This document shows positions 7,724-33,241 of a stretch of 51,833 nt of DNA, in pieces. How positions within the stretch are numbered: the first letter of the stretch is position 1; every line of letters begins with the position of its first letter. The stretch is from IMG/VR virus record IMGVR_UViG_3300025603_000022, positions 1 through 51,833 of that record. The stretch is one strand, 5' to 3'. The notes below the pieces were generated by a model that ran no database searches, was not told where the DNA came from, and worked only from the letters and a program-made list of their open reading frames with translations. The DNA is from a virus. Position numbers and translations under genes: made by a program.

Positions 7724-7729
7724 AAAATT

Positions 7730-7735
7730 ATTATA
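7730..7735 (-). promoter_or_regulatory. -10 box positioned for a leaderless start
   Basis: TATAAT at 7735-7730 is separated by exactly 6 nt (AATTTT) from the ATG at 7723, placing the likely +1 on or next to the start codon. No -35 is recognised and the TG extension is absent here (AGG precedes). Confidence 0.45.
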
Positions 7736-7737
7736 CC

Positions 7738-7917
7738 TTACTTGTTTTTACTGTCTGTTGAGTAAAATCCAGAACCATTAAACTTGATTCCCACAGCTTG
7801 AAACATTTTAGTTACATTACCATGGCATTTTGGGCAGTAGGCTAGGGTTGTATCTCTGATGGATTGATGATAGTCAAAATCTCCACAGAGCTCACACTTG
7901 TAGGTGTATACTGGCAC
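7738..7917 (-). CDS. FmdB-like zinc-ribbon protein
   Basis: Starts with PVYTYKCELCG, then CPKC 19 residues after, and ends VGIKFNGSGFYSTDS, a near-diagnostic order for the FmdB/putative regulatory zinc-ribbon family. I place the start at GTG 7917, where TAGTG couples it to the upstream stop, giving 59 residues that begin PVYTYKC as in the family. Function of this family is unclear; a small RNA- or protein-binding role is only inferred. Confidence 0.85.
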   Translation of the reverse strand: MPVYTYKCELCGDFDYHQSIRDTTLAYCPKCHGNVTKMFQAVGIKFNGSGFYSTDSKNK

Positions 7918-8150
7918 TACCAAATCCTAACAATAGTCATGCAAGGATCTCCGCCGTCAATCCATTCTTTTTCTTCTTCATCACTCATCTTGTATCCTTC
8001 GTGTGTTTCACAAAAGGCTTCTGTTGACCACCCCATATCTACTCCATATTGAACCCAATCGTAAATATCAATTGTCTTGCTTAGCATACCGCTTTCTTTA
8101 GCTATTCTATTTCTCCAATACTTCTCAAACTGCGGCTCGTCGGGGCTCAC
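7917..8150 (-). CDS. Hypothetical protein, 77 aa
   Basis: Acidic helical protein with tryptophans (YDWVQYGVDMGWSTEAFCETHEGY), like small conserved phage proteins of unknown function. Coupled by 1-4 nt overlaps on both sides. Confidence 0.65.
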   Translation of the reverse strand: MSPDEPQFEKYWRNRIAKESGMLSKTIDIYDWVQYGVDMGWSTEAFCETHEGYKMSDEEEKEWIDGGDPCMTIVRIW

Positions 8151-8479
8151 AGATATCCCTTATGCTTCCACTCTGAATAGTTCAGGGCTGTGGTGGGTCC
8201 ACCAGATTCATCATCTAGGTTCTTTTTAAGGCTTCCCGTTTGCATTACCGCATTTTTCTTTTCAGAGACTACGGGGGTGCGGTGCTCTTCTGATATTGCC
8301 CAAGACATTGTTGTCCCAATCGTACATCCGACCGTAGAGAATGCGTTGGCGATGTCTTCTGGATGAGCAACCTCATCTTTTCCAAAGTAGTTTTGCTCAT
8401 CAAGAGACCTTAGAACCAGATCCGCAAACTCGCGTGGGGTCATATATATGTTGCTGTTTCCATATTTTGATTTTGACAT
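8147..8479 (-). CDS. Hypothetical protein, 110 aa
   Basis: Start placed at ATG 8479, which follows AAAGGAAAGTA and overlaps the upstream TAA (TAATG). The frame reads further up, but that part belongs to the 8479-8649 gene. The middle (EDIANAFSTVGCTIGTTMSWAIS) may form a helical hairpin. No recognised domain. Confidence 0.65.
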   Translation of the reverse strand: MSKSKYGNSNIYMTPREFADLVLRSLDEQNYFGKDEVAHPEDIANAFSTVGCTIGTTMSWAISEEHRTPVVSEKKNAVMQTGSLKKNLDDESGGPTTALNYSEWKHKGYL

Positions 8480-8649
8480 TACTTTCCTTTCGTTTGATGA
8501 CAAGCGCATCCACACTTGCCATGGTTAAATTGATAAGGACACGTTTCGTGGTGTTCTGTTATGCAAAAACCACTTGGTCCATCCATCTGTCTTTCTGGAG
8601 TGGGTATAGGTCTTGACAGGTCTTCTCTTTTTGACCTTCTCGTTGCCAC
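8479..8649 (-). CDS. Cys/His-rich small protein, 56 aa, with CGCxCH motif
   Basis: GTG start at 8649 after AAGGGGTGAAA, ending in TAATG. The C-terminal half reads ITEHHETCPYQ then GKCGCACHQ, a compact Cys/His cluster likely to bind zinc. The same C..x..CGCxCH pattern ends the glycosyltransferase at 13921. The competing frame (8525-8722) begins inside the promoter and has no motif, so I prefer this one. An upstream GTG at 8655 is an alternative start. Confidence 0.72.
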   Translation of the reverse strand: MATRRSKREDLSRPIPTPERQMDGPSGFCITEHHETCPYQFNHGKCGCACHQTKGK

Positions 8650-8680
8650 TTTCACCCCTTGCGCCAGTTTCCGTTTTCTT

Positions 8681-8710
8681 ATTGTACATTAAGGTGACGC
8701 CCCTTGTCAA
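8681..8710 (-). promoter_or_regulatory. Sigma70/SigA-type promoter TTGACA-N18-TACAAT
   Basis: TTGACA at 8710-8705, 18-nt spacer, TACAAT at 8686-8681. It lies just after the glycosyltransferase stop (8719) and precedes the 56-aa Cys/His gene. Confidence 0.75.
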
Positions 8711-8718
8711 CCCCCAAA

Positions 8719-9753
8719 TCACACCGATTTTATTAAATCTATGTACTTCTGCCTCAGCGATTCTTGCGAGAATGTCTCATACCCAAGGGAAAATGCCTCT
8801 TTTTTTAGCAATTTCTTGTCTGATGCATCAAAGTATTGATCTATTTTCTTTGCTAGGTCCCTTGGATCTGCGCTATAGATGTCTATGCTCTTCTTTGCCA
8901 TGAAGTTTCCAATAATTTCTGACCCTGCCAGCCACTTTTTAGGCAATATCAGGTTATTCGGAGGTATGTCCGTCATGAATACCGGAAGGCCGCTTAAAAG
9001 TGCCTCATTCATCGGCAAGCATAGTCCAGCATACCTTCTAGGAAGCACCATGGCATCAAATCCATGGTATAAATCTTCGTTGTTGTCTTCATTTGACACT
9101 TTTACCTTTAGCCTTACGTCATCACAATCTATATCTAGGGGAGTTTGGCTCTTGATTACCAGATTGTAGTCAGATTCAGAGTATTTTAACATCTCTATAA
9201 CTGACTCTGTTCCGTTTCTGTCGTGAGCAGCGGCTTTACCGGCAATATGCAAGAGCTTTCTGCTATCTTTCATGTTGTCTACCCTGTTTTTGTTAAAAGC
9301 TTCCGCATCTGTTGGGGGAGGGAGAAACTCTATCCTAGAACGGTCTCCAAACCTATCTCTCATCTCGTCAATTCTCCACATAGTTGGTGCTAATAGAATC
9401 GTTGGCATTGACTCTTGCAGGCTAATGAATCCACCAAAAAATTCAAAGTTGTATTGAAGAATTGTCTTTATCTTTTTCTTTCTTGCCATGTCTACAAGCT
9501 TTTTATGATAAAAGGTTTCACAGCTAATTACAACGTCTATTCCAGACAAGAAATTGATTATGTCTGAGCTTGTGGGGAAGCCACTAACAACCTTATGCCT
9601 TGTATCCTGATACCTTTCAGAGTACTGTTTGTTTTTGTTAAAGGGGCTAGAGTCTATTACCAAAACCTTATCTGGATTTAACATCTTAACGAGTTCTAGG
9701 GTTTGATTTCCCAATCCTGTGTTATCACATCTGGCAATAATTCCTAGTCCCAC
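8719..9753 (-). CDS. Glycosyltransferase, GT-B fold (GT4-like)
   Basis: About 344 residues. The N-terminus GLGIIARCDNTGLGNQTLELVK is the glycine-rich first motif of GT-B enzymes, and the second half holds the donor-site region with a LPRRYAGLCLPMNEALLSGLPV stretch, corresponding to the E-x7-E signature of family 4 (E in NEALL). It should transfer a sugar from a nucleotide donor in the cytoplasm. Start taken as GTG 9753 (overlap with the upstream TAG); the longer TTG at 9768 would add five residues. It is the last gene of a four-gene glycosyltransferase operon. Acceptor unknown. Confidence 0.85.
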   Translation of the reverse strand: MGLGIIARCDNTGLGNQTLELVKMLNPDKVLVIDSSPFNKNKQYSERYQDTRHKVVSGFPTSSDIINFLSGIDVVISCETFYHKKLVDMARKKKIKTILQYNFEFFGGFISLQESMPTILLAPTMWRIDEMRDRFGDRSRIEFLPPPTDAEAFNKNRVDNMKDSRKLLHIAGKAAAHDRNGTESVIEMLKYSESDYNLVIKSQTPLDIDCDDVRLKVKVSNEDNNEDLYHGFDAMVLPRRYAGLCLPMNEALLSGLPVFMTDIPPNNLILPKKWLAGSEIIGNFMAKKSIDIYSADPRDLAKKIDQYFDASDKKLLKKEAFSLGYETFSQESLRQKYIDLIKSV

Positions 9754-10481
9754 TCTTTGTACCCCCAACCATTATCATCACTCGTAAACTTTCTGGTTCC
9801 CGCCCTTCCGTCAAGATGATAAGACCTCTTGATCCCTCCATCTGGGTGATAAATCCAGAGCTTGTGCTCGTCCCACCCATCATCTTGAACCTTTCCATGA
9901 AACCTATCCTCAATGAATGTTTTTTCATTTGAATAGGGGAGAACGGAATCTCTGTAGTATTTTGTCAAGCTTAGGTGGGGTCTCTGAGACCACTGAATAG
10001 TCTTCATAAAGTTACCCTCTTTTTCAAACATGAGATATTCATGCGGTTCTGGTATGACTTCTTCAAAGTGGAATCTAATTGTTTTTGCCTTTTCGTATTC
10101 AATCATATCCAGACACTCTTCCCAGTCTAGCTGTTTATCGATGACCAGGGGGGTGTCGTTTTCAATGTAAAGAATAAGGGATGTCTGAACCTCGTCTATT
10201 GTTTTTTTCATCATAGTTGTTTGATGAGAGTGCTCTTCAAAGATAAACGGCAACACGTTGCCCCACTCATGCATACACTTCCATAAAACTCTATTCTTGA
10301 ATTCATCATATTCTGGCTTCTTACCAGCTCTCTCTTTTCTAAGGCCATCAATTTGCAGAATTATCTCAGACTCTGGAAGGTGATGCCTAATGGATCTAAC
10401 AGTCTCTTCAATAATCGCAGTGTCTGGATGAGTTGGGATTATAGATATGGGGACGATAGCCGTTATGTCTGTCTTATTCAT
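9744..10481 (-). CDS. Glycosyltransferase, GT-A-like
   Basis: A 245-residue protein with the layout of a GT-A nucleotide-sugar transferase: N-terminal beta strand ITAIVPISIIPTHPDT, a helix, a second strand SEIILQIDG, and LILYIENDTPL at about 126-136, where the acidic END may take the place of the metal-binding DxD. The C-terminal part has an EDRFHGKVQDDGWDEH region that could hold the general base. Confidence in the fold is moderate, in sugar or acceptor none. It overlaps neighbours by 8-10 nt within the glycosyltransferase run. Confidence 0.65.
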   Translation of the reverse strand: MNKTDITAIVPISIIPTHPDTAIIEETVRSIRHHLPESEIILQIDGLRKERAGKKPEYDEFKNRVLWKCMHEWGNVLPFIFEEHSHQTTMMKKTIDEVQTSLILYIENDTPLVIDKQLDWEECLDMIEYEKAKTIRFHFEEVIPEPHEYLMFEKEGNFMKTIQWSQRPHLSLTKYYRDSVLPYSNEKTFIEDRFHGKVQDDGWDEHKLWIYHPDGGIKRSYHLDGRAGTRKFTSDDNGWGYKEWD

Positions 10482-11319
10482 TCAACTGCCTCATTATCTT
10501 TATCGAAAAATCTCTTTTATACTTAATCCACCAACACACAGCCCGATGCATATTGTTTGGGTAGTCACTTAGCAGTTCTGGAATCAACTTTTCTAGGTCG
10601 TTCCAGTCTTTCACCCTGATTACCGGAGGGTTTACTTCAGACACATAGGTAAAGAAGTCAGCCTCGACACCCCTTGAATCTTTTAGGTCAGCAACTGGTA
10701 AACACATCAACTCTATCGCCTCAAAAAATCTAAAGGAGTCAACTACCACGGCACCGGATGGGCAAGGGGCTATCCTAGCCCTTGACATTAACTCATAATA
10801 CTTCTCTGGTGGGTCGCCCTGTGTGAATCCACTTGTGGGCCTATATAGGCTATTAACGAGCTTGGGCATTACCTGAGAAAGCTCCTGCCTTCTCTGGTGA
10901 GTTATTTGTCCGGCAAAGTATGTGTCGTAATCCTTGACAGGATACCCAGGACGGTATTCCTTTATGTGCTTTGGTGCTCCAACAAAAAACTTGTTGTACT
11001 TTTTGTGCTTTTCGTGAGGGTATTGAACCCAAATTTCAATATTGGGGTGGGTTATCTTGTCTACGTCAAAGTCGGCGCACTCATCACCACTGATAAAAAG
11101 TATTGCTCTTTTTATTTTTAACAACTGTGTGGATATTTCCTTTTCCGCACCGGCATTTCCTTGACCAGGAATTACCACTATCCCCCTGTCTGACTCTGGT
11201 ATTTCTTGTACGACCTCTTGTTTTAGGTGGTTTCTTTCAAACATTTCATTTAAAAGTCCGTAATCCCACTTATCGCTTGCAGAGTCTTGAGGATTAGTAG
11301 AGTATATATATACATTCAC
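10474..11319 (-). CDS. Exostosin-like glycosyltransferase (GT47-like)
   Basis: 281 residues. The signature is YFAGQITHQRRQEL around 135, then about 40 residues later YYELMSRARIAPCPSG and VVVDSFRFFEAIELMCLPV, the ordered motif set of exostosin-type GT-B enzymes (donor-binding region with R-F-E-A). The start is GTG 11319 in a GTGA overlap. Eukaryotic relatives build heparan-type chains, but in phages the acceptor is unknown. Confidence 0.78.
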   Translation of the reverse strand: MNVYIYSTNPQDSASDKWDYGLLNEMFERNHLKQEVVQEIPESDRGIVVIPGQGNAGAEKEISTQLLKIKRAILFISGDECADFDVDKITHPNIEIWVQYPHEKHKKYNKFFVGAPKHIKEYRPGYPVKDYDTYFAGQITHQRRQELSQVMPKLVNSLYRPTSGFTQGDPPEKYYELMSRARIAPCPSGAVVVDSFRFFEAIELMCLPVADLKDSRGVEADFFTYVSEVNPPVIRVKDWNDLEKLIPELLSDYPNNMHRAVCWWIKYKRDFSIKIMRQLNE

Positions 11320-12269
11320 AGATCCAACCCCCTTAATATATCATTCCACCTATTTACATAGGTATGATCCATCTTTGTTCTTTTATGTCCTGCTAAACGA
11401 ATGGACTCTCTCTCTTCGTCATGTTCGAGGTAGTAGTCAATCTTTTTCTTTAGATCCTCTAGGTTTCCATGCTCATACCAAACAATTTCCTTCTTGTCAA
11501 CAAACGTATCCTCAATACCCCGAATTCCTGGATAAATTGTAAAACCACCCCTTCCCGTTGACTCAAACAACCTGTCACTTGTGTAGTAAGGGTATTTAAA
11601 TCCAAGATTAAGGGTATCTCCAACGGCAATCTTACTCTTTGCATAGATTCTATTTAGACTATTCCCTCTGAGGGTTCCCGTATCGCCATCCCCGCTAACA
11701 TGCGTAAATCCATCTCCGTAAGTATCTCTAAGGAATTCAATCAGCTCTGGCCTGTACGGATACTCTGGGTGATACCCCTTGCTGCCAACAAAAATAACTT
11801 CATGTTCAAAGTCATTTGAGTATTCTTTGTCAATGAAACACTCCTTGTCGTACACTCCAGGTAACAGGAAGTGCCCCTTTACATTGGTATTTTCATTAAA
11901 CCAGTCTGCCATTAACTTGTCTACCGTAAAAAAGTGTCCAATTGTTTTATAAAAGTTGTCCTTCTCAAGATCGATCTGTCTCCTTAAACCAAACCATAAG
12001 TCAAGGTGGTAGGTCATCGTGGGTATCCCATCCTTGTTTATCTCATCAAGAACTGAATCCATCGATATCGTTCCCGTCGTCTTCCATCCGTGAGTGTGCA
12101 CCCAAACGAAAAGGTCAGACTTTCTTGCACAACGAAGAACCTGTTGGCTTCTAACCTCACCCTCTTGAAGCTTAATCACTGTATGACCGAGTGACTCCAG
12201 CGTCTTTACATGGTGAGACTCACTCGAATAATCAACACCAAAATTTCCTAAAAACGATATGGTAGACAT
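11316..12269 (-). CDS. Glycosyltransferase, CgeB/GT1-like
   Basis: About 317 residues from ATG 12269 (GGAATAC upstream; beginning STISFLGNFGVDYSSESHH). The C-terminal half has VIFVGSKGYHPEY ... IYAKSKIAVGDTLN ... TSDRLFESTGRGGFTIYPG, the pattern of CgeB-type and Glyco_trans_1_2 proteins. Cytoplasmic sugar transfer is inferred. The frame is open to 12347 but the added 26 residues are basic, low in structure and fill the gap after the HNH gene, so I exclude them. Confidence 0.8.
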   Translation of the reverse strand: MSTISFLGNFGVDYSSESHHVKTLESLGHTVIKLQEGEVRSQQVLRCARKSDLFVWVHTHGWKTTGTISMDSVLDEINKDGIPTMTYHLDLWFGLRRQIDLEKDNFYKTIGHFFTVDKLMADWFNENTNVKGHFLLPGVYDKECFIDKEYSNDFEHEVIFVGSKGYHPEYPYRPELIEFLRDTYGDGFTHVSGDGDTGTLRGNSLNRIYAKSKIAVGDTLNLGFKYPYYTSDRLFESTGRGGFTIYPGIRGIEDTFVDKKEIVWYEHGNLEDLKKKIDYYLEHDEERESIRLAGHKRTKMDHTYVNRWNDILRGLDL

Positions 12270-12346
12270 GTATTCCAATCTGTTTATGTTGTGACAACTA
12301 TACCGAGCCCTGCTTTTGGAGCGATATCTAGATCTTGTAGAGTACA

Positions 12347-12784
12347 CTATTCCGAAGAATAGAAAGTTATTAGGTCCAGGCTATTACCACTTACGTTTGC
12401 ATTTCTAGCAAACGTTCTTATTCTGTGGCAGTTGGCACACACCAGCTCGCACTTCTCGATTTCTCTCTTAACCAACTCAATGTCAGAAGTATGAGCCCAG
12501 AACTGACTAATAGCAAAACTCTTATCCCCCAAATGATCAAAATCTAGAACAAAGTTTGGATACTCTTCTCTACAGTCCAGACATCTCTTCCCTTGCTTGA
12601 AATCTTGTATATATTTCTTAATGCTACCGCGCCGATCACGTTGTCTATGGCGGCTCTTGTCTTTCTGACCTACCCCAAGGTGGTAAGATATTGTTCCCTT
12701 AGAGCACCCAAGTTGCGCCTGAATTTGTCTATAAGACAGCCCTTTGTCATACAGACTTGCGATGTTATCTGATAACTCTGTCAT
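12347..12784 (-). CDS. HNH endonuclease with N-terminal helix-turn-helix
   Basis: 145 residues. Residues 13-37 (YDKGLSYRQIQAQLGCSKGTISYHL) form a recognisable HTH. The nuclease module has C68-x2-C71, DFDH at 81-84, and CANCH at 116-120, so the structural zinc is held by the four cysteines and the catalytic histidine is likely H84. This is the type of free-standing homing-like HNH common in phages. The gene begins 20 nt beyond a truncated tRNA-Gln-like sequence, with an extended -10 and ATG 6 nt after it, so a leaderless mRNA is likely. It resembles the HNH at 20835-21170. Confidence 0.88.
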   Translation of the reverse strand: MTELSDNIASLYDKGLSYRQIQAQLGCSKGTISYHLGVGQKDKSRHRQRDRRGSIKKYIQDFKQGKRCLDCREEYPNFVLDFDHLGDKSFAISQFWAHTSDIELVKREIEKCELVCANCHRIRTFARNANVSGNSLDLITFYSSE

Positions 12785-12790
12785 GGTTCA

Positions 12791-12799
12791 ATTATACCA
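12791..12799 (-). promoter_or_regulatory. Extended -10 TGGTATAAT with leaderless spacing
   Basis: TGGTATAAT at 12799-12791, then TGAACC, then ATG (12784-12782). There is no Shine-Dalgarno, and the 6-nt gap puts +1 at the start codon. The -35 region is tRNA remnant and shows no TTGACA. Confidence 0.65.
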
Positions 12800-12803
12800 C
12801 ATT

Positions 12804-12861
12804 TTCGAACCACGGTTACCAGATTCAGAGCCTGGCGTCTTGCCAGTTAGACGATCTGGGA
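12804..12861 (-). pseudogene. Truncated tRNA-Gln-like sequence (CTG anticodon)
   Basis: Minus-strand bases 12861-12804 give a 5' acceptor strand TCCCAGA, a D arm closed by CGTC/GACG with GG in the loop, an anticodon stem CCAGG/TCTGG around loop CTCTGAA (anticodon CTG, Gln), and a T-arm 5' strand with GGTTCGAA. There the match ends: the 3' T strand and the acceptor 3' strand (TCTGGGA) are absent, and the HNH promoter starts. I looked for the missing 3' part on the far side of the HNH gene and did not see it. It cannot form a full cloverleaf, so it should be non-functional. Confidence 0.68.
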
Positions 12862-12867
12862 ATGCTG

Positions 12868-12948
12868 AGCCAGAGGCAGGATTCGAACCTGCGTTGTTTT
12901 TGTACCGATTTACAAGATCGGTCCCATCGGCCACTAGGGGACTCTGGC
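12868..12948 (-). tRNA. tRNA-Thr (TGT anticodon)
   Basis: GCCAGAG/CTCTGGC acceptor, D arm CCC/GGG with TAGTGG in the loop, anticodon stem CCGAT/ATCGG with loop CTTGTAA (U33, anticodon TGT, A37), and T arm GCAGG-TTCGAAT-CCTGC. The cloverleaf is complete; the discriminator base is T and CCA is not encoded. The 81-nt length comes from a variable region of about 12 nt, longer than usual for tRNA-Thr. It ends 7 nt before the tRNA-Gln remnant. Confidence 0.88.
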
Positions 12949-12958
12949 GTAAATCTAT

Positions 12959-13168
12959 TTACTTGTGGTTAGCCTTATAAGATTCGTCAATAATCTCAAA
13001 CGCCCACGCACGAATCTTTTCTTCATTCTTGAGAAAATGATGTCGGCAGAATAAAAGATCTCCGGATACTCCGTTTGCCCACACATATGCCTGACTGCCA
13101 CATGCATCACAACGATCTGATGAGTTTAATCCATTTGATAATTCTTTAACCTCAGTCATTGTATCCAT
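12959..13168 (-). CDS. DUF7455-like zinc-ribbon protein, 69 aa
   Basis: Contains RCDACGSQAYVW, LLFCRHHFLKNE and a terminal helix, the pattern of the DUF7455 family found almost only in actinobacteria and their phages; C20, C23, C41 and H43/H44 likely bind zinc. It follows a perfect promoter (13198-13226) and AAAAGGAGAT. It supports the host inference; the function is unknown. Confidence 0.82.
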   Translation of the reverse strand: MDTMTEVKELSNGLNSSDRCDACGSQAYVWANGVSGDLLFCRHHFLKNEEKIRAWAFEIIDESYKANHK

Positions 13169-13197
13169 TATATCTCCTTTTTTATGTGTGTAGGTAT

Positions 13198-13226
13198 ATT
13201 ATACAGACTGTTGTTTATGCTGTCAA
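13198..13226 (-). promoter_or_regulatory. Consensus promoter TTGACA-N17-TATAAT
   Basis: Perfect TTGACA (13226-13221), 17-nt spacer and perfect TATAAT (13203-13198). It should drive the DUF7455 gene and possibly the tRNA and downstream genes. Confidence 0.92.
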
Positions 13227-14988: not shown

Positions 14989-15275
14989 GAAAGTCTTTGA
15001 CCACCTGGGACATCGTACACCGGATCAAGGGTAACAGGTATTCCATAGGACTCTATTACTCCCTTTACCCTTTGAAGATAAACAATACACTTAAACCTTT
15101 CCTTTTCTGACATGTGTCTCCAGTAGCTTTCGTAGAACCTAAGACCAATATAGGGGGGAACCATGTCGTACTCCACGATGTCCATTGCAAAGTCAGACGG
15201 TACTGGTATTTTTCTTACCTGTGACTTAATCTTTGGGGTGTATATCACCCTTCCTCCATCGTCAAAGATTTCCAT
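14985..15275 (-). CDS. Hypothetical protein, 96 aa
   Basis: Unrecognised. Residues 40-75 (PPYIGLRFYESYWRHMSEKERF) suggest a helical small protein. It overlaps the WhiB gene end by 31 nt, and is ATGA-coupled to the glycosyltransferase gene. Confidence 0.6.
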   Translation of the reverse strand: MEIFDDGGRVIYTPKIKSQVRKIPVPSDFAMDIVEYDMVPPYIGLRFYESYWRHMSEKERFKCIVYLQRVKGVIESYGIPVTLDPVYDVPGGQRLS

Positions 15276-15526
15276 GTCTCAAACCAGTCTTGCTTTTCTT
15301 TGTGTAGGTTAAACTCTTTGTCTATCTTTCCCTCTTTTAGGTAGACTCCGCCCCAGACCCCCCACTCTTTGTTGGAAACCCCTACGGCGAAGCATTCCTG
15401 TCTAACGGGACAACTACGGCAAAACTTATCGATTGTGATGGACATGCTCCTATCTTCCTCATACTTGTCAAAGAATATATTAGTGTCCATCCCCAAACAC
15501 TTAGATTTTTCTCTCCACTTAGACAT
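15245..15526 (-). CDS. WhiB-family transcription factor
   Basis: From ATG 15526 the protein has 93 residues with C10, C36-x2-C39-x5-C45, the four cysteines that hold the 4Fe-4S cluster of Wbl proteins, followed by SNKEWGVWGGVY, the GVWGG turn that contacts sigma factor. The first-second cysteine gap is 25 residues. Wbl proteins are found in actinobacteria and their phages and act on RNA polymerase containing the primary sigma factor; phage versions can redirect host transcription. An ATG two codons earlier (15532) is also possible. Coupled by 8 nt to the upstream gene. Confidence 0.93.
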   Translation of the reverse strand: MSKWREKSKCLGMDTNIFFDKYEEDRSMSITIDKFCRSCPVRQECFAVGVSNKEWGVWGGVYLKEGKIDKEFNLHKEKQDWFETWKSLTMEEG

Positions 15527-15737
15527 CGGCATCAGCAATCGAATTTGGAATTTTCCACCCAAACTCTGTGATTGAGAATACACTGGCGTGATGCCATTGA
15601 CCTTTCCAAATCACACCATTCTTGTTAAATTGAGCAGAGTTTCCTCTTTTGTATTTAACTACATCCCAGCCAACCCATCCAAGATCTGAACGAGAATTAA
15701 CAATTTTTTCCATCTTTACTAAATCACTAACTAACAT
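15519..15737 (-). CDS. Hypothetical protein, 72 aa
   Basis: Small tryptophan-rich protein, unrecognised, with AGGA before ATG 15737. It precedes WhiB and probably shares its transcript. Confidence 0.6.
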   Translation of the reverse strand: MLVSDLVKMEKIVNSRSDLGWVGWDVVKYKRGNSAQFNKNGVIWKGQWHHASVFSITEFGWKIPNSIADADV

Positions 15738-16489: not shown

Positions 16490-16518
16490 ACTTTATCAAA
16501 AAGAATGGTGTTTGTCAA
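16490..16518 (-). promoter_or_regulatory. Promoter TTGACA-N17-TAAAGT
   Basis: TTGACA (16518-16513) overlaps the endolysin stop, and after 17 nt TAAAGT (16495-16490) follows, just before the RBS of the 16468 gene. Confidence 0.7.
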
Positions 16519-17228
16519 CTCCACAGGGATTTCCATGCAGATGGATCGAACACCATGCCATTCTTGTTCTTCCCCAGGGAAGCATAGAAAGCCTTGACTG
16601 CTTCTGTTGTTTGTGATCCATAGAAACCTGTCGGCCCTGCTGGTATCTTAAATCCTTTTGATATTAGCTTTTTCTGAAGATCCTTTACGTCACCATTTCT
16701 GGAACCGAAGTCTAATCTATTCCTTCCTGGGTAGGTCTTAGATGGCTTTGATTTGACTGGTGCTTTTTTAACTGGAAATTCATCCTCGAACATTGGAAGA
16801 AAAAACTTCTTTCCACCAAAGTCTGCCTTGTTAGTAAAGCTGATATGAATGTGTTGAAAATGGGAGAATCCAGATCCCCTAAAGTTCCAGTTATCTTTTG
16901 TAGCTGAAGCTACTTGATCTTCATAGACTATGTGGGCTATTCTTCCGTTGTCTTTTCCTTCTCTGCAGTATGTAGCGAGCTCTTCTGCAAATTTCTTTGC
17001 AGTGGTACCCTTTTTCCACCCTGGACCAAAGGACTCATCAACGTCTATCGCGTGGACGATTCCCCGAGGGTCCGGATTGTGAAAGCTGCCTTTTCCGTTA
17101 GTACCCCAGCCGTCTCTTGCTGCATGTGCTGCATCTCCGATCCAGCCATCGCTAGATTTATCTCTCTTAGGCCACTCTTTGTTTATTTGGTTTCTGAGGG
17201 TTACCCCTGCTGCACAAAGTTTTGCCAT
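16515..17228 (-). CDS. Endolysin: peptidase M15-like domain plus peptidoglycan-binding domain
   Basis: 237 residues. The first 135 form an M15-like metallopeptidase candidate: H59-A-I-D62-V-D64 and HFQHIHISF with H126/H128 supply the zinc ligands and nearby acid of D-Ala-D-Ala or L-Ala-D-Glu peptidases. After a linker rich in lysine and proline (about 150-168) comes a peptidoglycan-binding type 1 domain (GSRNGDVKDLQKKL ... GFYGSQTTEAVKAFYA). No signal peptide, so release needs a holin; a holin candidate lies two genes upstream. TAATG-coupled to a 55-aa acidic gene. Confidence 0.85.
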   Translation of the reverse strand: MAKLCAAGVTLRNQINKEWPKRDKSSDGWIGDAAHAARDGWGTNGKGSFHNPDPRGIVHAIDVDESFGPGWKKGTTAKKFAEELATYCREGKDNGRIAHIVYEDQVASATKDNWNFRGSGFSHFQHIHISFTNKADFGGKKFFLPMFEDEFPVKKAPVKSKPSKTYPGRNRLDFGSRNGDVKDLQKKLISKGFKIPAGPTGFYGSQTTEAVKAFYASLGKNKNGMVFDPSAWKSLWS

Positions 17229-17395
17229 TACAGGGCCGCCCAGTCTATATCGGATTCGTCTACTTTTGTATAGTCAGAGTCTACTAGATCTTCTGTGAAC
17301 TCAATAGATACATTTTCTTGCCCCTCTATTTCTGAAACAACATCTTCTACGATGTTTGGGTCAACCTCATCCTGATCAAATAACGAATATTCCAT
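17228..17395 (-). CDS. Acidic protein, 55 aa, coupled to endolysin
   Basis: Short ORF of strongly acidic composition (about 18 D/E) with ATG 17395 located 6 nt after TACAAT and without an RBS, so it probably starts a leaderless transcript. TAATG joins it to the endolysin. Function unknown; it may modulate lysis, or be only a leader that sets endolysin translation. Confidence 0.68.
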   Translation of the reverse strand: MEYSLFDQDEVDPNIVEDVVSEIEGQENVSIEFTEDLVDSDYTKVDESDIDWAAL

Positions 17396-17401
17396 ATTAT
17401 A

Positions 17402-17410
17402 ATTGTACCA
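17402..17410 (-). promoter_or_regulatory. Extended -10 TGGTACAAT with leaderless spacing
   Basis: TGGTACAAT at 17410-17402 lies just after the 17414 stop; the 6-nt gap (TATAAT) leads to ATG 17395. A second -10-like TATAAT immediately precedes the ATG but is too close to serve it. Confidence 0.6.
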
Positions 17411-17413
17411 CCT

Positions 17414-17599
17414 TTACCAGCCATCGATTGTTATAGCTAAGCCACCTGCTGGGGGGCCATGCATTAATTGCACTTGATTTAAAACTGTTCTTATTGCACA
17501 TCCAGGTCTTGGCTCTACAGAAGACGCTACTCTTTCATCATTGATGTAAAGTGTTGCGGAGAACCTTCTCTTGTCTAGTTGCATCACTACTATCTTCAC
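17414..17599 (-). CDS. Hypothetical protein, 61 aa, GTG start
   Basis: GTG at 17599 is 6 nt downstream of TACAAT (17611-17606), with no Shine-Dalgarno. Small beta-rich protein (KIVVMQLDKRRFSATLYI ... GGLAITID), no recognised fold. Sits between the putative holin and the acidic lysis-linked gene. Confidence 0.6.
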   Translation of the reverse strand: MKIVVMQLDKRRFSATLYINDERVASSVEPRPGCAIRTVLNQVQLMHGPPAGGLAITIDGW

Positions 17600-17605
17600 A
17601 AGATG

Positions 17606-17614
17606 ATTGTATCA
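17606..17614 (-). promoter_or_regulatory. Extended -10 TGATACAAT with leaderless spacing
   Basis: TGATACAAT at 17614-17606, gap CATCTT, then GTG 17599. It lies 8 nt after the holin stop codon. Confidence 0.6.
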
Positions 17615-20834: not shown

Positions 20835-21170
20835 CTATCCATGTTTTCTAAGATAGGTTCTTGATCTGTGGCAGTTTGAACACACAATGTCGCACTTTTT
20901 TACTTCTTTCAGGATGTCCTCAATGCTAAAATAATCTAACATCTGCCCTATGTTTGATACCTTTGTCCCGCGAGCGTGATCAAAATCAAGAACGTAAAAT
21001 GGATATTTTTTATTGCAGTCGATGCATCCGCTTTTTTCTTTTATCTTTCCAAGAATTTCCTGTACTTCTCTTTTTTTGGAAGCAATTCTTTTTTGTGGTT
21101 TTTCTTTTTTGTTTTTTTCATTATCAAAAGAGTAAGGCTGGGAACAATTCTTTAGATTATCCTTCGTCAT
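20835..21170 (-). CDS. HNH endonuclease, 111 aa
   Basis: C49-x2-C52, VLDFDH at 60-65 and CSNCH at 97-101 match the HNH/zinc module of the 12347 protein, which has the same spacing and the shared words VLDFDH and CxNCHR.RT. The N-terminal 45 residues are basic with no HTH. Its start lies inside the last codons of the DUF3310 gene (14-nt overlap), suggesting insertion behind it. Homing-type DNA cleavage is inferred. Confidence 0.87.
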   Translation of the reverse strand: MTKDNLKNCSQPYSFDNEKNKKEKPQKRIASKKREVQEILGKIKEKSGCIDCNKKYPFYVLDFDHARGTKVSNIGQMLDYFSIEDILKEVKKCDIVCSNCHRSRTYLRKHG

Positions 21171-28200: not shown

Positions 28201-28522
28201 CCAGATTTTCTAGACCAAGGTCATTCTTTGCAAGAATAACAATGTGATTATAGATAACATCAAGGGGGTCTGTTCTTTCTTTCTTTTCCCTCTTATCAAA
28301 TCTATCTGCTGTTATGTACCCTTCTATTCCAAGAATTGGCTTTATTCCCCCCGCTTTTGCAGCACGGACCATGGGGCGGTGGCCCGATAGGGTTCCGTGG
28401 TCAGTGATGGCAATAGCCGTCATCTTGTTTTCAATTGCTTTTTCAACATACTCTTCGGGGTTGGATACTCCGTCCATCAGGGAGTAGTGGGTATGAACGT
28501 GAAGCGGTTCGTAGCTATGCAC
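25250..28522 (-). CDS. dnaE: DNA polymerase III alpha subunit (DnaE-type)
   Basis: 1090 residues, close to bacterial DnaE length. PHP domain at 1-about 240 (HVHTHYSLMDG, AITDHGTLSGH). Catalytic palm with GPGRGSSAGS near 375 and PDIDSDIQD near 417-425 (two acids in DxD, third D nearby). Thumb/fingers with GVFQCEA, YQEQVM and SFNKSHAVAYS, and a C-terminal OB-type region (AYILMGVVRSIKRGSGW ... ITKAGKRMASLILVD). GTG start with AAGGAAAA. It is the replicative polymerase of the phage. A candidate structured RNA with a terminator-like 3' end lies just upstream in its leader. Confidence 0.95.
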   Translation of the reverse strand: MHSYEPLHVHTHYSLMDGVSNPEEYVEKAIENKMTAIAITDHGTLSGHRPMVRAAKAGGIKPILGIEGYITADRFDKREKKERTDPLDVIYNHIVILAKNDLGLENLGRLNEIAWNEGFYRKPRIDFELLEKYREGLIVTSACMSGLINKAIEVDDYAAAKSHLKWFGDRFGEDFYVEVMPHNTAGMNKALIELADAAGHKIVVTPDCHHATVDQKVIQEIMLINNTHAKLQKEITYDKSRKIEDPMKRLDYLYGEDRMMSFNKFDIHLLSGDEMHEAMGEDSRPDMFANTIEVAEKIEEYTIHRNLNLLPVEHKDPDKMIRKYAESFLKEKGLDSSQEYVDRLNEELDAIKQKNFASYFLVVQNMLNWAKKNDIMVGPGRGSSAGSLLCFALGITDVDPIKHGLLFFRFIDVDRDDMPDIDSDIQDTRREEVKSYLEDQYKHVASIATFLQFKDKGVVRDVARCFNVPLADVNRALKTVDTWDEFVFSKNTLWFRDKYPEVEVYANKLRGRIRGTGVHAAGVVTSKIPISRIAPMETRSVTGSDTRLPVVAVDMSEAADIGLIKIDALGLKTLTVIHDTLNIVKDRTGKKLDLHKVDMEDKNIYDMLSDGHTKGVFQCEATPYTNLLVKMGVSKFNELVASNALVRPGAMNTIGKDYIARKHGKQGITYASPLMKDFTEDTYGTILYQEQVMLACTNLGGMSMGEANKVRKIIGKKGDAQDFDEFKELFVRNATGPLGGKAAEKMWHDFEAHAGYSFNKSHAVAYSTVSYWTAWLKYYFPLEFMFALLKNEKDKDARTEYLIEAKRMGIPMRLPHVNDSGIDFHIEGKGIRFGLSSIKYISDKIASRYIEARPFSSYKEIEEFTFTKGNGVNSRALASMSTVGALTFPDHPRDEEKIKESMYEYLNLPEFNIQVPQHYHAYISPVDDFEEKGAYILMGVVRSIKRGSGWSRVDILDSTGSIGVFDEEETTIEAGRTYIILVGSNRILEAIPVEEIRESKSALVRFLNYKQLPYGQEEYFVLSFKPRITKAGKRMASLILVDSDRNLLSLIVFPSNFAMAFTRLEQGKAYNINYSISKDEDLVFQEVVVA

Positions 28523-28540
28523 TAGTTTTCCTTATCTAAT

Positions 28541-28652
28541 AAAAAAGGTAGGAGGGCAACTTCTATACTGGATTTCAACCTCGCTTTGCCGATTAACTAT
28601 AACCACCCTAGGGGTTGCGAGAATTCAGCACGATGGAGTATACCCTCCTACC
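28541..28652 (-). ncRNA. Structured RNA candidate upstream of dnaE, with terminator-like end
   Basis: Between the SSB stop (28660) and dnaE (28522). Minus-strand 5' GGTAGGAGGG (28652-28643) pairs perfectly with CCCTCCTACC (28556-28547), followed by six T residues (28546-28541). Directly inside, TATACT (28642-28637) pairs with AGTATA (28569-28564), leaving a 7-nt bulge on one side. Further inside, CTCGC (28621-28617) can pair with GCGAG (28584-28580) and GCTGA (28629-28625) with TCGGC (28592-28588); these two cross, so a pseudoknot is possible. A small ACCC/GGGT hairpin lies in the middle. It could be a regulatory leader or a stable small RNA. I recognise no known family. Confidence 0.7.
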
Positions 28653-28659
28653 AGCCTAA

Positions 28660-29319
28660 TTACCAATCAATGTTGGTGGTATTACTTGTTCCGGCAGCTT
28701 CAAATCCCAAGTAAAAGGACTCTTGCTCTGCATATGCTACTTCACGAACAACCTTTTCTAGGTTGAAGGGCTCTACTCCAGTCCAGTCATGCTTTTCTGT
28801 GTCTGGATCTCCTGGAAGAATGATGTAGGTAGTATCCGTTCCGCTGCCATTGCGCTTCATGCGCCAGGTTCGGTTAGAAATAGATCCTGTATCAATCGCA
28901 TACTCCTTGAGAGTGTTGAATGCAGACTGCTTTCCTACTCCCTGTGACCATACGGCAACGTAAGGATCTTCTAGACCATCATCAACAAGGAGGTTGGTGT
29001 AAAATCGGAACCTTGCTCTCCAACCACTCTTTGGTTCTTTGCGAGCCATCTCGCATCCAAAGCATCGCCCTTCGCTCTCTACTGTGCAGACAGCCTTTCG
29101 CTTGTAGTCTTTTGGATTTGTGTGCTCAGAAACAACAATAGCCAGATCTCTCTCGACATCAAAGTTGGGAGAGTCTTCGTCCAGCTCATTGATAAAACGA
29201 ACCTTGGAGCTTTGACCATCATCCAGCTTTAGCCAGCGAACCTTGATTCCGCCTTCGCCGGAAACTGATGGACGCTCTAAGGCTTTTTCCATTTGTTTTA
29301 ATCCCTTTATTACACCCAT
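28660..29319 (-). CDS. ssb: gp32-like single-stranded DNA-binding protein
   Basis: 219 residues. The central part has WLKLDDGQSSKVRFINEL, then H66 and C78, C86, C89 (CTVESEGRCFGC), the zinc site seen in T4 gp32-type and related phage SSBs, with FRFYTNLLVDDG and YVAVWSQG strands of the OB fold. No acidic tail of the usual kind except the IDW end. It should protect single-stranded DNA and bind replisome proteins. RBS ATAAGGAG. Confidence 0.75.
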   Translation of the reverse strand: MGVIKGLKQMEKALERPSVSGEGGIKVRWLKLDDGQSSKVRFINELDEDSPNFDVERDLAIVVSEHTNPKDYKRKAVCTVESEGRCFGCEMARKEPKSGWRARFRFYTNLLVDDGLEDPYVAVWSQGVGKQSAFNTLKEYAIDTGSISNRTWRMKRNGSGTDTTYIILPGDPDTEKHDWTGVEPFNLEKVVREVAYAEQESFYLGFEAAGTSNTTNIDW

Positions 29320-29336
29320 AATACGCTCCTTATATT

Positions 29337-30284
29337 TTATTTATACATTGCCAGCAGTGGGTCGCTGGTCTTTATATCTAACTGTTTTATATCAGCATCA
29401 CTCATGTCGCCAATATCTTTGAATCTATTTGGTAGGCTAAAAGCTACAGCCCTTGTGCCTACCTTGTCTATGATTTTGTCGGCCATATTCTTGCCAGCAT
29501 CATCATTGTCAGGTATAACTATCATAGAGTTAAAGCTCTTTGTCAATAGTTCTATCTGAAACTTTGAAATATTTGAACCTAGGGAGGCCACCGATGCCAA
29601 GCCACACTGATCCAGCCTGATCGCATCAAATGAGGACTCCACAACGTAGACTGTATCATATCTTTTTGCGCGGTGCAAATTGAACAGAACCTTGGACTTT
29701 GGAAGGTTGGGGGTATTTTTAAATCTTTTACCCTCAACGCTGCGACCAACGAATCCCACAAACATAGAGCCACTAGGGTCATTAATTGGTACTGTTATCA
29801 TGTCTTGTTTTTCGCTGTACCCCAAAGAAAACTTAGCCATCGAATCTGTACTAATTCTTCTACTTTCAAAATACCAGACTGCCCTGGGGGACTTCCGTCC
29901 CTGACTGCCCAATCTCTTTATCTGTATCTCATCATAAGAAACATAGTCTACTTTCTCAACGAGTATTTTATCTAAGCTTCCCAGGATGTCTATCTCCTCC
30001 TTGGCTGAATCAATAAATCTTGAAGATTCAAAGTATGACTTCTTTGTTGTATGCATAACTAACTCAATTAAAGATCTTGACTCATGGCAAGAAAAGCAAA
30101 AGAAGGTCCCCTTTTCCTTGCTAACTTCTCCCGCAGGTGTTCGATAGTTATTATGGTATGGACAAAATATCAAATAGTCAGAGTCTACTTCTGATTCAAT
30201 GTCTGTTCCTGACCAGGAGAGGGCTCTCTTGACTTGCTCACCCGTGTATATATTGGATGATTCTTGTCCAAACCTTCTATACAT
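29337..30284 (-). CDS. dnaG: DNA primase (DnaG-type, CHC2 and TOPRIM)
   Basis: 315 residues. CHC2 zinc site C41-P-Y-H44 and C63-F-S-C66. TOPRIM core: VYVVESSFDAIRL with E216 and D220, then SLGSNIS, then MIVIPDNDDAGKNM with D259 and D261. The usual glycine after the TOPRIM Glu is replaced by Ser. There is no C-terminal helicase-binding domain of normal size. It makes RNA primers with the helicase encoded next door. It overlaps the upstream gene by 100 nt, which is unusual here. Confidence 0.9.
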   Translation of the reverse strand: MYRRFGQESSNIYTGEQVKRALSWSGTDIESEVDSDYLIFCPYHNNYRTPAGEVSKEKGTFFCFSCHESRSLIELVMHTTKKSYFESSRFIDSAKEEIDILGSLDKILVEKVDYVSYDEIQIKRLGSQGRKSPRAVWYFESRRISTDSMAKFSLGYSEKQDMITVPINDPSGSMFVGFVGRSVEGKRFKNTPNLPKSKVLFNLHRAKRYDTVYVVESSFDAIRLDQCGLASVASLGSNISKFQIELLTKSFNSMIVIPDNDDAGKNMADKIIDKVGTRAVAFSLPNRFKDIGDMSDADIKQLDIKTSDPLLAMYK

Positions 30285-30523
30285 GTTGCACTCTTTCTCC
30301 CTACATATGATCCATATAAGCTTAAAACAAACTCATAATAGTTTCCAGTGTATGATAGCGACCAGTCTGGACCTATATCGTACCTTTGAACATATCCGGT
30401 TTCTTTCATTGAATCAGAAAGAAGCCTTATATATTCACCCCTCATCCTTGGAATAAAGGAGTCGTCTAGTATCTGACCCGACAGCTCAAATCTTTTTATT
30501 CTCTTGTGAAGGTAATCCGTCAT
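30185..30523 (-). CDS. Hypothetical protein overlapping primase, 112 aa
   Basis: Residues 1-75 (KRIKRFELSGQILDDSFIPRMRGEY ... GPDWSLSYTGNYYEFVLSLYGSYVG) look like a conserved protein in the replication region of actinophages. The last 33 codons run 100 nt into the primase gene and look unlike normal protein (SREPSPGQEQT). Either the overlap is real or the natural end is lost by a frameshift near 30290. ATG 30523 has no RBS and lies 6 nt after TATACT. Confidence 0.6.
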   Translation of the reverse strand: MTDYLHKRIKRFELSGQILDDSFIPRMRGEYIRLLSDSMKETGYVQRYDIGPDWSLSYTGNYYEFVLSLYGSYVGRKSATCIEGLDKNHPIYTRVSKSREPSPGQEQTLNQK

Positions 30524-30529
30524 GACTCA

Positions 30530-30535
30530 AGTATA
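30530..30535 (-). promoter_or_regulatory. -10 TATACT with leaderless spacing
   Basis: TATACT at 30535-30530, then TGAGTC, then ATG 30523. A GTGATG precedes the hexamer, close to but not exactly the GTGR extension. Confidence 0.45.
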
Positions 30536-30541
30536 CATCAC

Positions 30542-31756
30542 CTATGCAAACTCTTTGTTTACAAATCTACCACCGTCAAAGTCTACCTGAACCAGAAAAT
30601 CTCCTAGCGGCCCATTTCTTGATTTTCGGAAGACACACTCTATTACATCGCTATTAGGTGCTCTACCCAAGGCTAGCAGGAAGTCGGCATCGTAGGCAAT
30701 CTGTCTTGACCATGAGGTCTGACCAAGGGTCGGAACGCTGTTCATGTTGGTTACATCATCTGGTGTTGCAGAAGAGATTGCTATGATTGGAACCTGCTCG
30801 CTAATGGCCAAAAGCTTTAGTTCACGACTAAGGTTTTTCATTTTAACAACTTCGTTGTCAGTCTTTTGATTGCTTGTCATTAGGTTAAGGTAGTCTAGGA
30901 AAACAATGTCTGGCTTGTACTGATCAATCTTACCCTTAACCACGCTGGGTGAAACCTCTCCTATACCCTCATTAGAAACAATATGTATTGGTGGCTTTCC
31001 CTCAAACGTTTTCTCTGCCCACTTCTTGAACATGTCAATTTCAACCTGTCCAGAGCTGAGCTTTCTGTGAGACCACATTCCGTTTCCAATGATTGTCAAC
31101 ACCCTGTTTCTTACTTCTGATTCTGTCATCTCTAAGGAAACAATTAGCGGTGTCTTTCCATTCTTCCAAGCAGCTACCGCAAAGTATAGTGCCATCCAGC
31201 TCTTCCCTATTGCAGGGTAGGCTAGGAGGACCCCCAGCTGCCCGGGAACGATACCTGATGGCATGAACATGTCAAAGCCCTTAATACCTGTATAGATTCC
31301 ATGATTGCCGCTCTCCTTCATCTTTTTGATGTGTTCGAAGTAGGCAATGGTCTCGTCAATGTTAGTAACGTCTAGATCCCTGACCGTTGAGGTAACTCGC
31401 TTTATGCTAGAGGTTTCTGTTATTAACCTATCAAGTGCGTCTGTAGCCTTTCCTTCCTGAACGTCTGTGGCAGCAGCCCTCAACATCATCTTTACGTTAT
31501 CAACAAGATAGTCTTGTCTAAGTTCGTCAAGGTGGTGCTTGGTTGCTCCAGTTTCCGCAGTATAGTCAAAGTCTGGGAACTGCTGCTTAACGATGCTTAT
31601 TGGTGGTATAGATTGATTCTGATCATAATAATTACGGGTAAATTCCCAGATGTCGTTGTGAGTTCTTAAAAGTGACTCCACGTTAGCTTGCAGCAATACA
31701 TGCATCTGTTTGTCGTTAAGTACCGCCGACAAAGTTTTTGCTTCTAGGTTAGTCAC
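30542..31756 (-). CDS. dnaB: Replicative DNA helicase (DnaB-like)
   Basis: 404 residues. N-terminal all-helical domain, then a RecA-fold motor: Walker A GVLLAYPAIGKSW at 175-187 (unusual AYPAIGKS in place of AxPxxGKT), PLIVSLEMTESEVRNR, Walker B DIVFLDYLNLM near 283-293, and IIAISSATPDD. C-terminal FRKSRNGPLGDF carries the arginine-finger-type motif. It unwinds DNA at the fork. GTG start overlaps the upstream gene. Confidence 0.9.
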   Translation of the reverse strand: MTNLEAKTLSAVLNDKQMHVLLQANVESLLRTHNDIWEFTRNYYDQNQSIPPISIVKQQFPDFDYTAETGATKHHLDELRQDYLVDNVKMMLRAAATDVQEGKATDALDRLITETSSIKRVTSTVRDLDVTNIDETIAYFEHIKKMKESGNHGIYTGIKGFDMFMPSGIVPGQLGVLLAYPAIGKSWMALYFAVAAWKNGKTPLIVSLEMTESEVRNRVLTIIGNGMWSHRKLSSGQVEIDMFKKWAEKTFEGKPPIHIVSNEGIGEVSPSVVKGKIDQYKPDIVFLDYLNLMTSNQKTDNEVVKMKNLSRELKLLAISEQVPIIAISSATPDDVTNMNSVPTLGQTSWSRQIAYDADFLLALGRAPNSDVIECVFRKSRNGPLGDFLVQVDFDGGRFVNKEFA

Positions 31757-32057
31757 TGGCCCAGTCCTTCGCTTTTATACGCATCTCTGATCGAAACTGA
31801 TCATCTTCTTCTTGCATTTTAATGGATTGTAGCAGACGATCTACATTGTTGGCAAACCCTTTCCACTTTGGAGAACCATTTATCTTAAAGTAGTATTCCA
31901 TTGCAGAAAGAATGTCCTCATACTTAAACGATTCTAGCAGTGCATCTGCTGCCCACTGCTCGCTATACTTGTTAATTGGCTCTCTTACTATGTTGTTTTT
32001 TTTACAATACTGCTCGAACTTACTGATAAGAGCAAACTTGCTCTTACGATCAGACAC
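31749..32057 (-). CDS. Hypothetical helical protein beside helicase, 102 aa
   Basis: Helical protein (WAADALLESFKYEDILSAMEYYF ... WKGFANNVDRLLQS) directly before the helicase gene and overlapping it by 8 nt. Position suggests a helicase loader or accessory factor, but there is no loader motif visible. GTG start in TAGTG. Confidence 0.6.
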   Translation of the reverse strand: MSDRKSKFALISKFEQYCKKNNIVREPINKYSEQWAADALLESFKYEDILSAMEYYFKINGSPKWKGFANNVDRLLQSIKMQEEDDQFRSEMRIKAKDWASD

Positions 32058-32284
32058 TAGACACCTGCTGTAGATAGCGTTGCTGTTACGCAGAACTCTC
32101 CGCTTTCATCATATGAGGAGTTCAGTCCAAGAACCAGGATTTCTGGGTTCTTCTTTACAGTGGTATCAATTAGCTTACCCACTTTTTTTAGGGCTGATCC
32201 ATAGGTGTTTCCGTATCCACAAATAAGAAAGGCATTCTCTCCATGTGCGATGTATGCGTTTGAGTTGTTTTCTTTGTTTTTCAT
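32057..32284 (-). CDS. Hypothetical protein, 75 aa
   Basis: Residues 45-75 (NPEILVLGLNSSYDESGEFCVTATLSTAGV) form the conserved part of a small actinophage family; function unknown. Overlaps neighbours. Confidence 0.65.
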   Translation of the reverse strand: MKNKENNSNAYIAHGENAFLICGYGNTYGSALKKVGKLIDTTVKKNPEILVLGLNSSYDESGEFCVTATLSTAGV

Positions 32285-32478
32285 CCTAATTCTTCCTTTG
32301 CTTGGTTGAGTTTTTCTACTAGCTCTTGCTCTACAAAAGCGTATACACGATCAGATGCCTCTTTTGCTGTTTCGGCTTCGTGCTTATAGTCTGTTATCTG
32401 ACAATCAAGGCGCAGTGACTGGAAGTTTCCTACATTCACCGTGTACCCCAAAGTCCACTGTATTCTCGTTGGTTCCAT
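32281..32478 (-). CDS. Conserved actinophage protein, 65 aa
   Basis: Start at ATG 32478, after AAGG and the promoter at 32510-32538. PTRIQWTLGYTVNVGNFQSL and a final helix SDRVYAFVEQELVEK match a small conserved family with unknown role. The longer upstream frame (to 32538) covers the promoter and is rejected. Confidence 0.75.
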   Translation of the reverse strand: MEPTRIQWTLGYTVNVGNFQSLRLDCQITDYKHEAETAKEASDRVYAFVEQELVEKLNQAKEELG

Positions 32479-32509
32479 AAAAAACCTTTCCGTAGTTTTG
32501 TGTGTTTTT

Positions 32510-32538
32510 ATAATATCAGAAGCTAAGCCTCCTGTCAA
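32510..32538 (-). promoter_or_regulatory. Promoter TTGACA-N17-TATTAT
   Basis: TTGACA at 32538-32533, 17-nt spacer, TATTAT at 32515-32510, 32 nt before ATG 32478. It should drive the helicase-primase-SSB group leftwards. Confidence 0.88.
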
Positions 32539-32541
32539 CCC

Positions 32542-33084
32542 TTATATTGTTTCAGAAAATATTGGGGTAAACTTGCCATTTTCATCTTTTGTATAAAGAA
32601 GGATACCATCCCCCATGGCATAGCGCAATTCTTGCTCAGTGGGTACCTTGTTGTTTGTAATCAATCCATCTTTTCTTTTGCATCCATGGTGTATCTGGGC
32701 CATTGCTCTTCTTGCCTCCATGATGATGTCTTCTGAGTAGTATGATAGATGATGAAATGCCCTGACCCCTCCTGGAAGCTCGCCTATTGGGTTGGGTATT
32801 AAACCTTTTTCAACAAGTCTGGGGATGTGCTTTCTGTGATAGTTTAACAGGGTAGCTGCTTCTTTTACAGTAAAAGCTCTTTTTCTTTTCTTTTTAAATT
32901 CGACAATAGTCGTTACTTCTTTTTTGTCTTTTGTTAAATTGTCTAATGTAACAATTCCTGCTGCCCTGCTGGTATGAGCAATTCTAACCAAATCTCCGTT
33001 TAAGAACCAGACTTTTCTTCTTGGCCTTCTTATAACGGTGATTGTGTTGTTCTTGATCTCTTCTTCTCCGTCTCCAGCAGCCAT
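32542..33084 (-). CDS. Helix-turn-helix DNA-binding protein, 180 aa
   Basis: A central HTH, KRAFTVKEAATLLNYHRKHIPRLVEKGLIPNP (about 67-98), like MerR/excisionase winged-helix proteins, followed by HLSYYSEDIIMEARRAM and a conserved end DGLITNNKVPTEQELRYAMGDGILLYT. It is a conserved actinophage protein; a regulator or replication-origin role is inferred only from position at the boundary of replication and tail genes. N-terminal residues 15-60 are a separate beta segment. Confidence 0.75.
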   Translation of the reverse strand: MAAGDGEEEIKNNTITVIRRPRRKVWFLNGDLVRIAHTSRAAGIVTLDNLTKDKKEVTTIVEFKKKRKRAFTVKEAATLLNYHRKHIPRLVEKGLIPNPIGELPGGVRAFHHLSYYSEDIIMEARRAMAQIHHGCKRKDGLITNNKVPTEQELRYAMGDGILLYTKDENGKFTPIFSETI

Positions 33085-33224
33085 ACGGCCTCCCTGTTAT
33101 CTGAACTCCAGTTATGATAAAATCTTCTTGCCCCACAAATAATGCAAAAAGTCTCTAGATGGTTTTCAGAGCTAAATAGCCTATCAACAAAAACTTTCCC
33201 TTTACACCTTCTGCAAGATAACAT
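33030..33224 (-). CDS. Zinc-ribbon protein, 64 aa
   Basis: CRRCKGKVFVDRLF ... TFCIICGARRFYH holds two CxxC pairs about 22 apart, then a W-LL-KK basic tail ending SPL, as in a conserved actinophage family. Overlaps the HTH gene by 55 nt. The ATG is 8 nt after an extended -10 and has no RBS, so the start may be leaderless. Confidence 0.78.
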   Translation of the reverse strand: MLSCRRCKGKVFVDRLFSSENHLETFCIICGARRFYHNWSSDNREAVWLLETEKKRSRTTQSPL

Positions 33225-33232
33225 AGCGGTTA

Positions 33233-33241
33233 ATTATATCA
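33233..33241 (-). promoter_or_regulatory. Extended -10 TGATATAAT
   Basis: TGATATAAT at 33241-33233; its TGA is the stop of the 33239 gene. Followed by TAACCGCT and ATG 33224. The downstream bases TAACC are shared with the site at 33698. Confidence 0.6.

Follow-up and report, generated by a model that had tools for sequence, protein, structure and literature searches.

Extended -10 promoter elements spaced 6 nt from start codons suggest leaderless initiation in a group of uncultured, probably actinobacterial phages

Introduction

Leaderless mRNAs are translated by intact 70S ribosomes, and this type of translation is common in Actinobacteria. Leaderless bacterial genes are reported to carry a TANNNT or Pribnow-like signal some 12 bp upstream of the start codon, to lack a Shine-Dalgarno (SD) sequence and to be abundant in Actinobacteria (PMC3160421). 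For Corndog and other cluster O mycobacteriophages, SigA promoters PL1 and PR2, and similarly PL2, have been predicted, with a +1 position that coincides with the start codon (PMC4351075). Leaderless initiation was also proposed for a ShiLan-type HNH homing gene hidden in a mycobacteriophage methylase (PMC11855218), and a passing remark in the AR9 paper describes transcripts of phages as often leaderless. In a literature search of incomplete coverage, we found direct precedents only in the Corndog and ShiLan papers, and more may be in print.

Here, we analyzed a viral DNA stretch of 51,833 nucleotides (IMG/VR record IMGVR_UViG_3300025603_000022, referred to as the window) together with its relatives. 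Like cluster O phages, this group combines an actinobacterial host, here a probable one, with a predicted +1 on the start codon; the cluster O case concerns three promoters and mycobacterial hosts, whereas here about one-tenth of the called genes of a low-GC group are involved, mostly with an extended -10 element (PMC4351075). The TA-led genes of Actinobacteria share the signal spacing and the SD absence, and we reproduced the spacing on Frankia DNA; these are cellular genes, however, making up more than 20% of genes, whereas the phage fraction is lower and the -10 element closer to the full TATAAT (PMC3160421). In addition, the ShiLan proposal is based on the absence of a ribosome binding site (RBS) in an out-of-frame insert, whereas in the present group a correctly spaced promoter is seen for free-standing HNH genes (PMC11855218). 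The leaderless phage genes reported here are thus a well-supported instance of a known phenomenon, and it is the idea of an HNH cassette, set out below, that would be new.

Results

The earlier note had described six start codons preceded by a TATAAT, TACAAT or TATACT box, and all six boxes and gaps were found as described: all are on the minus strand, as are the genes that they precede, five have a gap of exactly 6 nt to ATG or GTG, and the sixth, at 33224, has a gap of 8 nt. An extended -10 (TGn) is present at four of them (12784, 17395, 17599 and 33224). The 7723 site (7721..7735) consists of TATAAT (7730-7735), the spacer aatttt and ATG, and opens a gene (6851-7723) for a protein of 290 aa with a weak glycosyl hydrolase 39/10 match below the Pfam cut-off. 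The 12784 site (12782..12799) reads TGG-TATAAT (box 12791-12796), tgaacc and ATG; its gene (12347-12784) encodes 145 aa with helix-turn-helix (HTH) and HNH domains and matches to PHROG HNH families. At the 17395 site (17393..17410), TGG-TACAAT (box 17402-17407) is followed by tataat and ATG, the start of a gene (17228-17395) of 55 aa, function unassigned. The endolysin gene (16515..17228, minus strand; PHROG endolysin families and PG_binding_1) comes directly after it, the stop codon of the first gene and the start codon of the second overlapping in the junction TAATG. The 17599 site (17597..17614) reads TGA-TACAAT (box 17606-17611), catctt and GTG, and leads into a gene (17414-17599) of 61 aa, function unassigned. 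The 30523 site (30521..30535), with TATACT (30530-30535), tgagtc and ATG, precedes a phrog_17515 gene (30185-30523) flanked by helicase and primase genes. Finally, the 33224 site (33222..33241) carries TGA-TATAAT (box 33233-33238), the 8-nt spacer taaccgct and ATG, and belongs to a phrog_12850 gene (33030-33224). By eye, none of the six has GGAG, GAGG or AGGA at SD distance, in agreement with the claim that they lack a purine-rich RBS. The accompanying claim that most other genes possess one was half true, as a strict SD core was found in 34 of the 70 other called genes of the window (5'-most start). Several further boxes in the window stand 5 to 8 nt before a potential start with no gene behind them.

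Since this AT-rich hexamer is common and the reader could have chosen fitting cases, chance has to be considered. The 6-nt gap was compared statistically with other gaps on genes called, with predicted starts, by a home-made gene caller, the genes at 30523 and 33224 being missing from the window's called set because each overlaps the next gene. In the window, one of the three boxes stands at gap 6 in 4/75 called genes, compared with 0.475 per other gap (Poisson P of 0.0015 before and about 0.06 after correction for the choice of gap). Since this count leaves room for chance once the gap choice is allowed for, eight related IMG/VR records, found via the terminase, were added (1170 called genes in nine records). 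In these eight relatives, unseen by the reader, a box at gap 6 precedes 67 of 1095 genes, against a mean of 4.1 per other gap (Poisson P of about 4e-56). Across all nine records, 69 genes have TATAAT at gap 6 and 14 have it at gap 7; the other gaps, 8 included, hold about 4 each, which leaves a sharp mode at 6 and a second, lower value at 7. The reversed hexamer gives a flat profile with 1 at gap 6. With a stricter gene caller that missed short genes of the window, the profile peaked at gap 6 as well (59 at that gap). Patterns were also counted in 15 whole records, of which the larger ones agree: G002, for instance, has 11 forward and 0 reverse matches (backward pattern, 0 and 0), and G003 has 18 and 0 (backward pattern, 0 and 2). 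Several small records have only one or two matches, and G007 and G009 are not above the control. As a positive control, TANNNT in Frankia occurs 24 times at gap 6, 35 times at gap 7 and about 4 times elsewhere (17 related, non-independent loci), and 50 kb of T4, a low-GC E. coli phage, showed no peak, with 1 at gap 6. Taken alone, the window is only suggestive; with the relatives, the pattern is far beyond chance, and a chance alignment of an AT-rich hexamer, which we consider extremely improbable, is contradicted by the relatives and the reversed-box control.

By sequence, the leaderless class comprises 105 of the 1170 called genes (about 9%), although some members are false: the box before the window's start 13159, rejected as a leaderless start, belongs to the SD-led start 13168, with TATAAT sitting between the SD sequence and a second ATG. 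TG precedes 49 of the 83 TATAAT boxes at gap 6-7, compared with 171 of 847 TATAAT overall, and -35 matches are weak, at least five of six bases being matched in 5/72 extended and 4/33 other boxes. The two modes of initiation separate by distance. An SD core follows the extended TATAAT in 0/49 cases at gap 6-7 and in 43/62 cases at 15-30 nt; in the wider comparison, it is present at 8/105 leaderless-class starts versus 489/1065 others. In 11 of the 105, the upstream gene lies 7 nt away, a distance that by arithmetic, and not case by case, would place its stop codon on the TAA within TATAAT. The window itself holds a contrasting pair: at 33680..33706 (minus strand), an extended -10 (box 33698-33703) lies 15 nt before the ATG of the gene 33239-33682, with CAGGAG as the SD sequence in the leader, and this box and the one at 33233-33238 are near-identical, the first with a 15-nt gap and an SD sequence and the second with an 8-nt gap and none. 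In described leaderless genes, a -10-like box ends about 7 nt upstream of the start codon, which gaps of 6 to 7 nt match; 33224, with 8, does not strictly conform.

The hexamer could alternatively act as an A/T-rich translation signal on a longer mRNA, with no promoter involved. A/U-rich sequence upstream of a start can aid ribosomes, and many leaderless-class genes start close behind an upstream gene. However, a sigma-factor element predicts the TG extension two bases upstream, and equally the SD-led class behind the same box at 15-30 nt, the matching spacing of the looser TANNNT in Frankia and the flat profile of the reversed hexamer. We therefore regard a pure translation signal as very improbable and continue with the promoter reading.

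Loss of the hexamers in close relatives, named by the earlier note as evidence that would speak against its claim, was looked for, and the outcome was in its favor, with box and gap conserved in orthologues. For the 30523 gene, all 16 loci compared, down to 56% protein identity, keep a box 6-7 nt from the start; the weakest of these boxes is the TATACT of the window. The 17599 gene keeps its box in 8/8 matched loci; in the homologues L010, L011, L012, L013 and L017 (63-69% identity), TGATATAAT stands at gap 6 while the surrounding sequence drifts. For the 17395 gene, the box is kept in 6/6 matched loci, and orthologues in L010, L011, L012, L013, L016, L035 and L052 have it at gap 6-7. Three of five homologues of the 7723 gene retain the box (L155 and L156 at gap 6, L157 at gap 5), L158 and L159, the most distant full-length homologues, lack it, and L160, a sixth homologue with a partial match, was left out of the count; the box is also found at 6-7 in L009, L019, L021, L022, L023 and L042. 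HNH genes matching that at 12784 have gap 6 in L019 and L021 as well.

The 33224 gene behaves differently: of 15 relatives, 14 keep a box 7-10 nt from the start, and in 13 of these the distance is 8-10 nt (a sixteenth locus, L152, lacking upstream DNA, was not counted). In L150, the sequence upstream of position 1501 contains no -10 box and has the purine-rich SD-like leader AAAGGTGGGG, an apparent switch from a putative short leader to an SD start. Since relatives keep the box at 7-10 nt, mostly 8-10, a leader of 1-4 nt is more likely at 33224 than a strictly leaderless start. Extended to the whole class, the same reasoning would make the promoters real with +1 a few bases upstream of the start codon, which suits 33224 and the 13 of 15 relatives at gaps 8-10; the other genes, however, peak sharply at 6, followed by 7, with gap 8 no higher than background, and this canonical +1 distance is not expected from a short-leader design, so we consider short leaders improbable as the general rule. 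The earlier note's reading of +1 at the start codon, giving leaderless beside SD-led initiation, is thus the best one for five of the six sites, 33224 being the exception.

The host is likely an actinobacterium, given that (i) a WhiB-like gene (15245..15583, minus strand; match 15335-15517 over the Pfam cut-off) is present in the window and WhiB exceeds the cut-off in nine of nine records, and in one of 14 control genomes, that of the actinobacterium C. glutamicum; (ii) the DUF7455 gene at 12959-13168 has relatives in 18 genome loci, 17 of which are Frankia, Pseudofrankia or Parafrankia (Frankiaceae); and (iii) the terminase is nearest to that of Streptomyces phages of the Gilson type (53% identity). 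Megablast of window positions 5000-29000 matched no named phage, and by eye the gene order of helicase, small gene, primase and DnaE-like polymerase is similar to that in Stanwilliamsviridae. In the parts of the Gilson and NootNoot genomes that were covered (Streptomyces phages of this family with a related terminase), 8 of 21 boxes at 5-7 nt match an annotated start exactly, two of these starts belonging to HNH genes (Gilson 60 and 237), and there is a modest gap-6 peak of 10 versus about 3.5 per other gap. In the part of Gilson covered, these two are among four annotated HNH genes, their boxes lying at 5-6 nt. Unlike here, the host genus of both phages is known and culturable.

The claim that leaderless starts fall on lysis-linked, HNH and glycosidase genes did not hold as a general rule, since the class in relatives also includes tail-fibre-like genes and many of unknown function; the HNH part was borne out as an enrichment. 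A search of the nine records with PF01844, PF13392 and phrog_2255, the last a biased query because it was chosen for matching the window's leaderless HNH gene, yielded 24 HNH reading frames, 12 of them with a leaderless-class start. Among called genes only, the class accounts for 11/21 HNH genes versus 94/1149 others (Fisher P 3e-7). For an insert test, 16 genes listed in the leaderless class as HNH or HNH-like were compared with relatives. A possible empty site was present for 8 and absent for 7; the remaining one (L022) turned out to be a conserved gene and was dismissed as an insert. Among the eight, the promoter lies inside the insert in three clear cases, one is contrary and four are ambiguous. 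The clear cases are G003 83868, with its empty site in L019; G001 11148, compared with L011 by BLAST ends and printed sequences, the global alignment of the pair being poor; and the endonuclease VII/HNH-like gene G001 17145, compared with L014 and L007. All three inserts lie in the start region of a downstream gene, and homology with the empty site stops short of the box, 15-32 nt ahead of the start codon, which suggests that the promoter arrived with the gene. The HNH gene of G004 with a start near 38996 (TATAAT 7 nt before GTG) was rejected as such a case, with its box outside the insert and homology of the empty site reaching 27 nt into the gene, and was kept in the HNH/leaderless counts.

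Further observations concern individual inserts. L083:17145-17588 holds an HNH/endonuclease VII-like insert at the terminase start, and its right end appears to give the terminase a new GGGG-containing leader and ATG. In the window, directly after a tRNA-Thr gene, positions 12785-12866 contain a piece that resembles the 5' part of the tRNA-Gln (ctg) gene that L017 has in this position (local score of 36 versus a best of 24 in 300 shuffles); ARAGORN calls no tRNA there, and the 12784 HNH gene, whose left junction is not exactly placeable, begins where the 3' half would be expected. This gene probably broke a tRNA gene. A second HNH frame at 20835-21170 has no leaderless box and shares 76% DNA identity over 66 nt with the 12784 gene.

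Discussion

The gap peak, SD absence, conservation in orthologues, the Frankia and T4 controls and WhiB together argue that these genes very probably use host-type sigma-A promoters, mostly with extended -10 elements, whose +1 is the first nucleotide of the start codon and which produce leaderless mRNAs beside SD-led ones. Under this model, read from the DNA, sigma-A of the host type would bind a strong, mostly extended -10 (TGn-TATAAT) beside the start; with the hexamer at -12 to -7, the 6-nt spacer would make the A of ATG the +1 position, so that AUG or GUG would form the 5' end of the mRNAs and translation would proceed with no SD sequence. Other genes of the same phage would use an SD leader, sometimes with the same promoter element 15-30 nt upstream.

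More tentatively, and with somewhat less than an even chance in our judgment, HNH homing genes might move as minimal self-expressing cassettes that begin on the left with an extended -10, continue after 6 nt with a leaderless start and the ORF, and end on the right with an RBS or start that restores the downstream gene whose start region received the insert. A leaderless promoter, shorter than 20 bp and independent of any leader or RBS at the insertion site, would suit a mobile gene ideally as an expression signal.

To conclude, leaderless initiation, previously predicted at a few phage promoters, very probably operates across an entire group of uncultured phages that likely infect actinobacteria. 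In this group, a single promoter element appears to have two uses, near the start with no SD sequence or farther off with one. The simple rule TGn-TATAAT-N6-ATG can serve to correct gene starts in these phages. If the cassette reading is true, it would explain how free-standing homing genes are expressed at any site in which they land.
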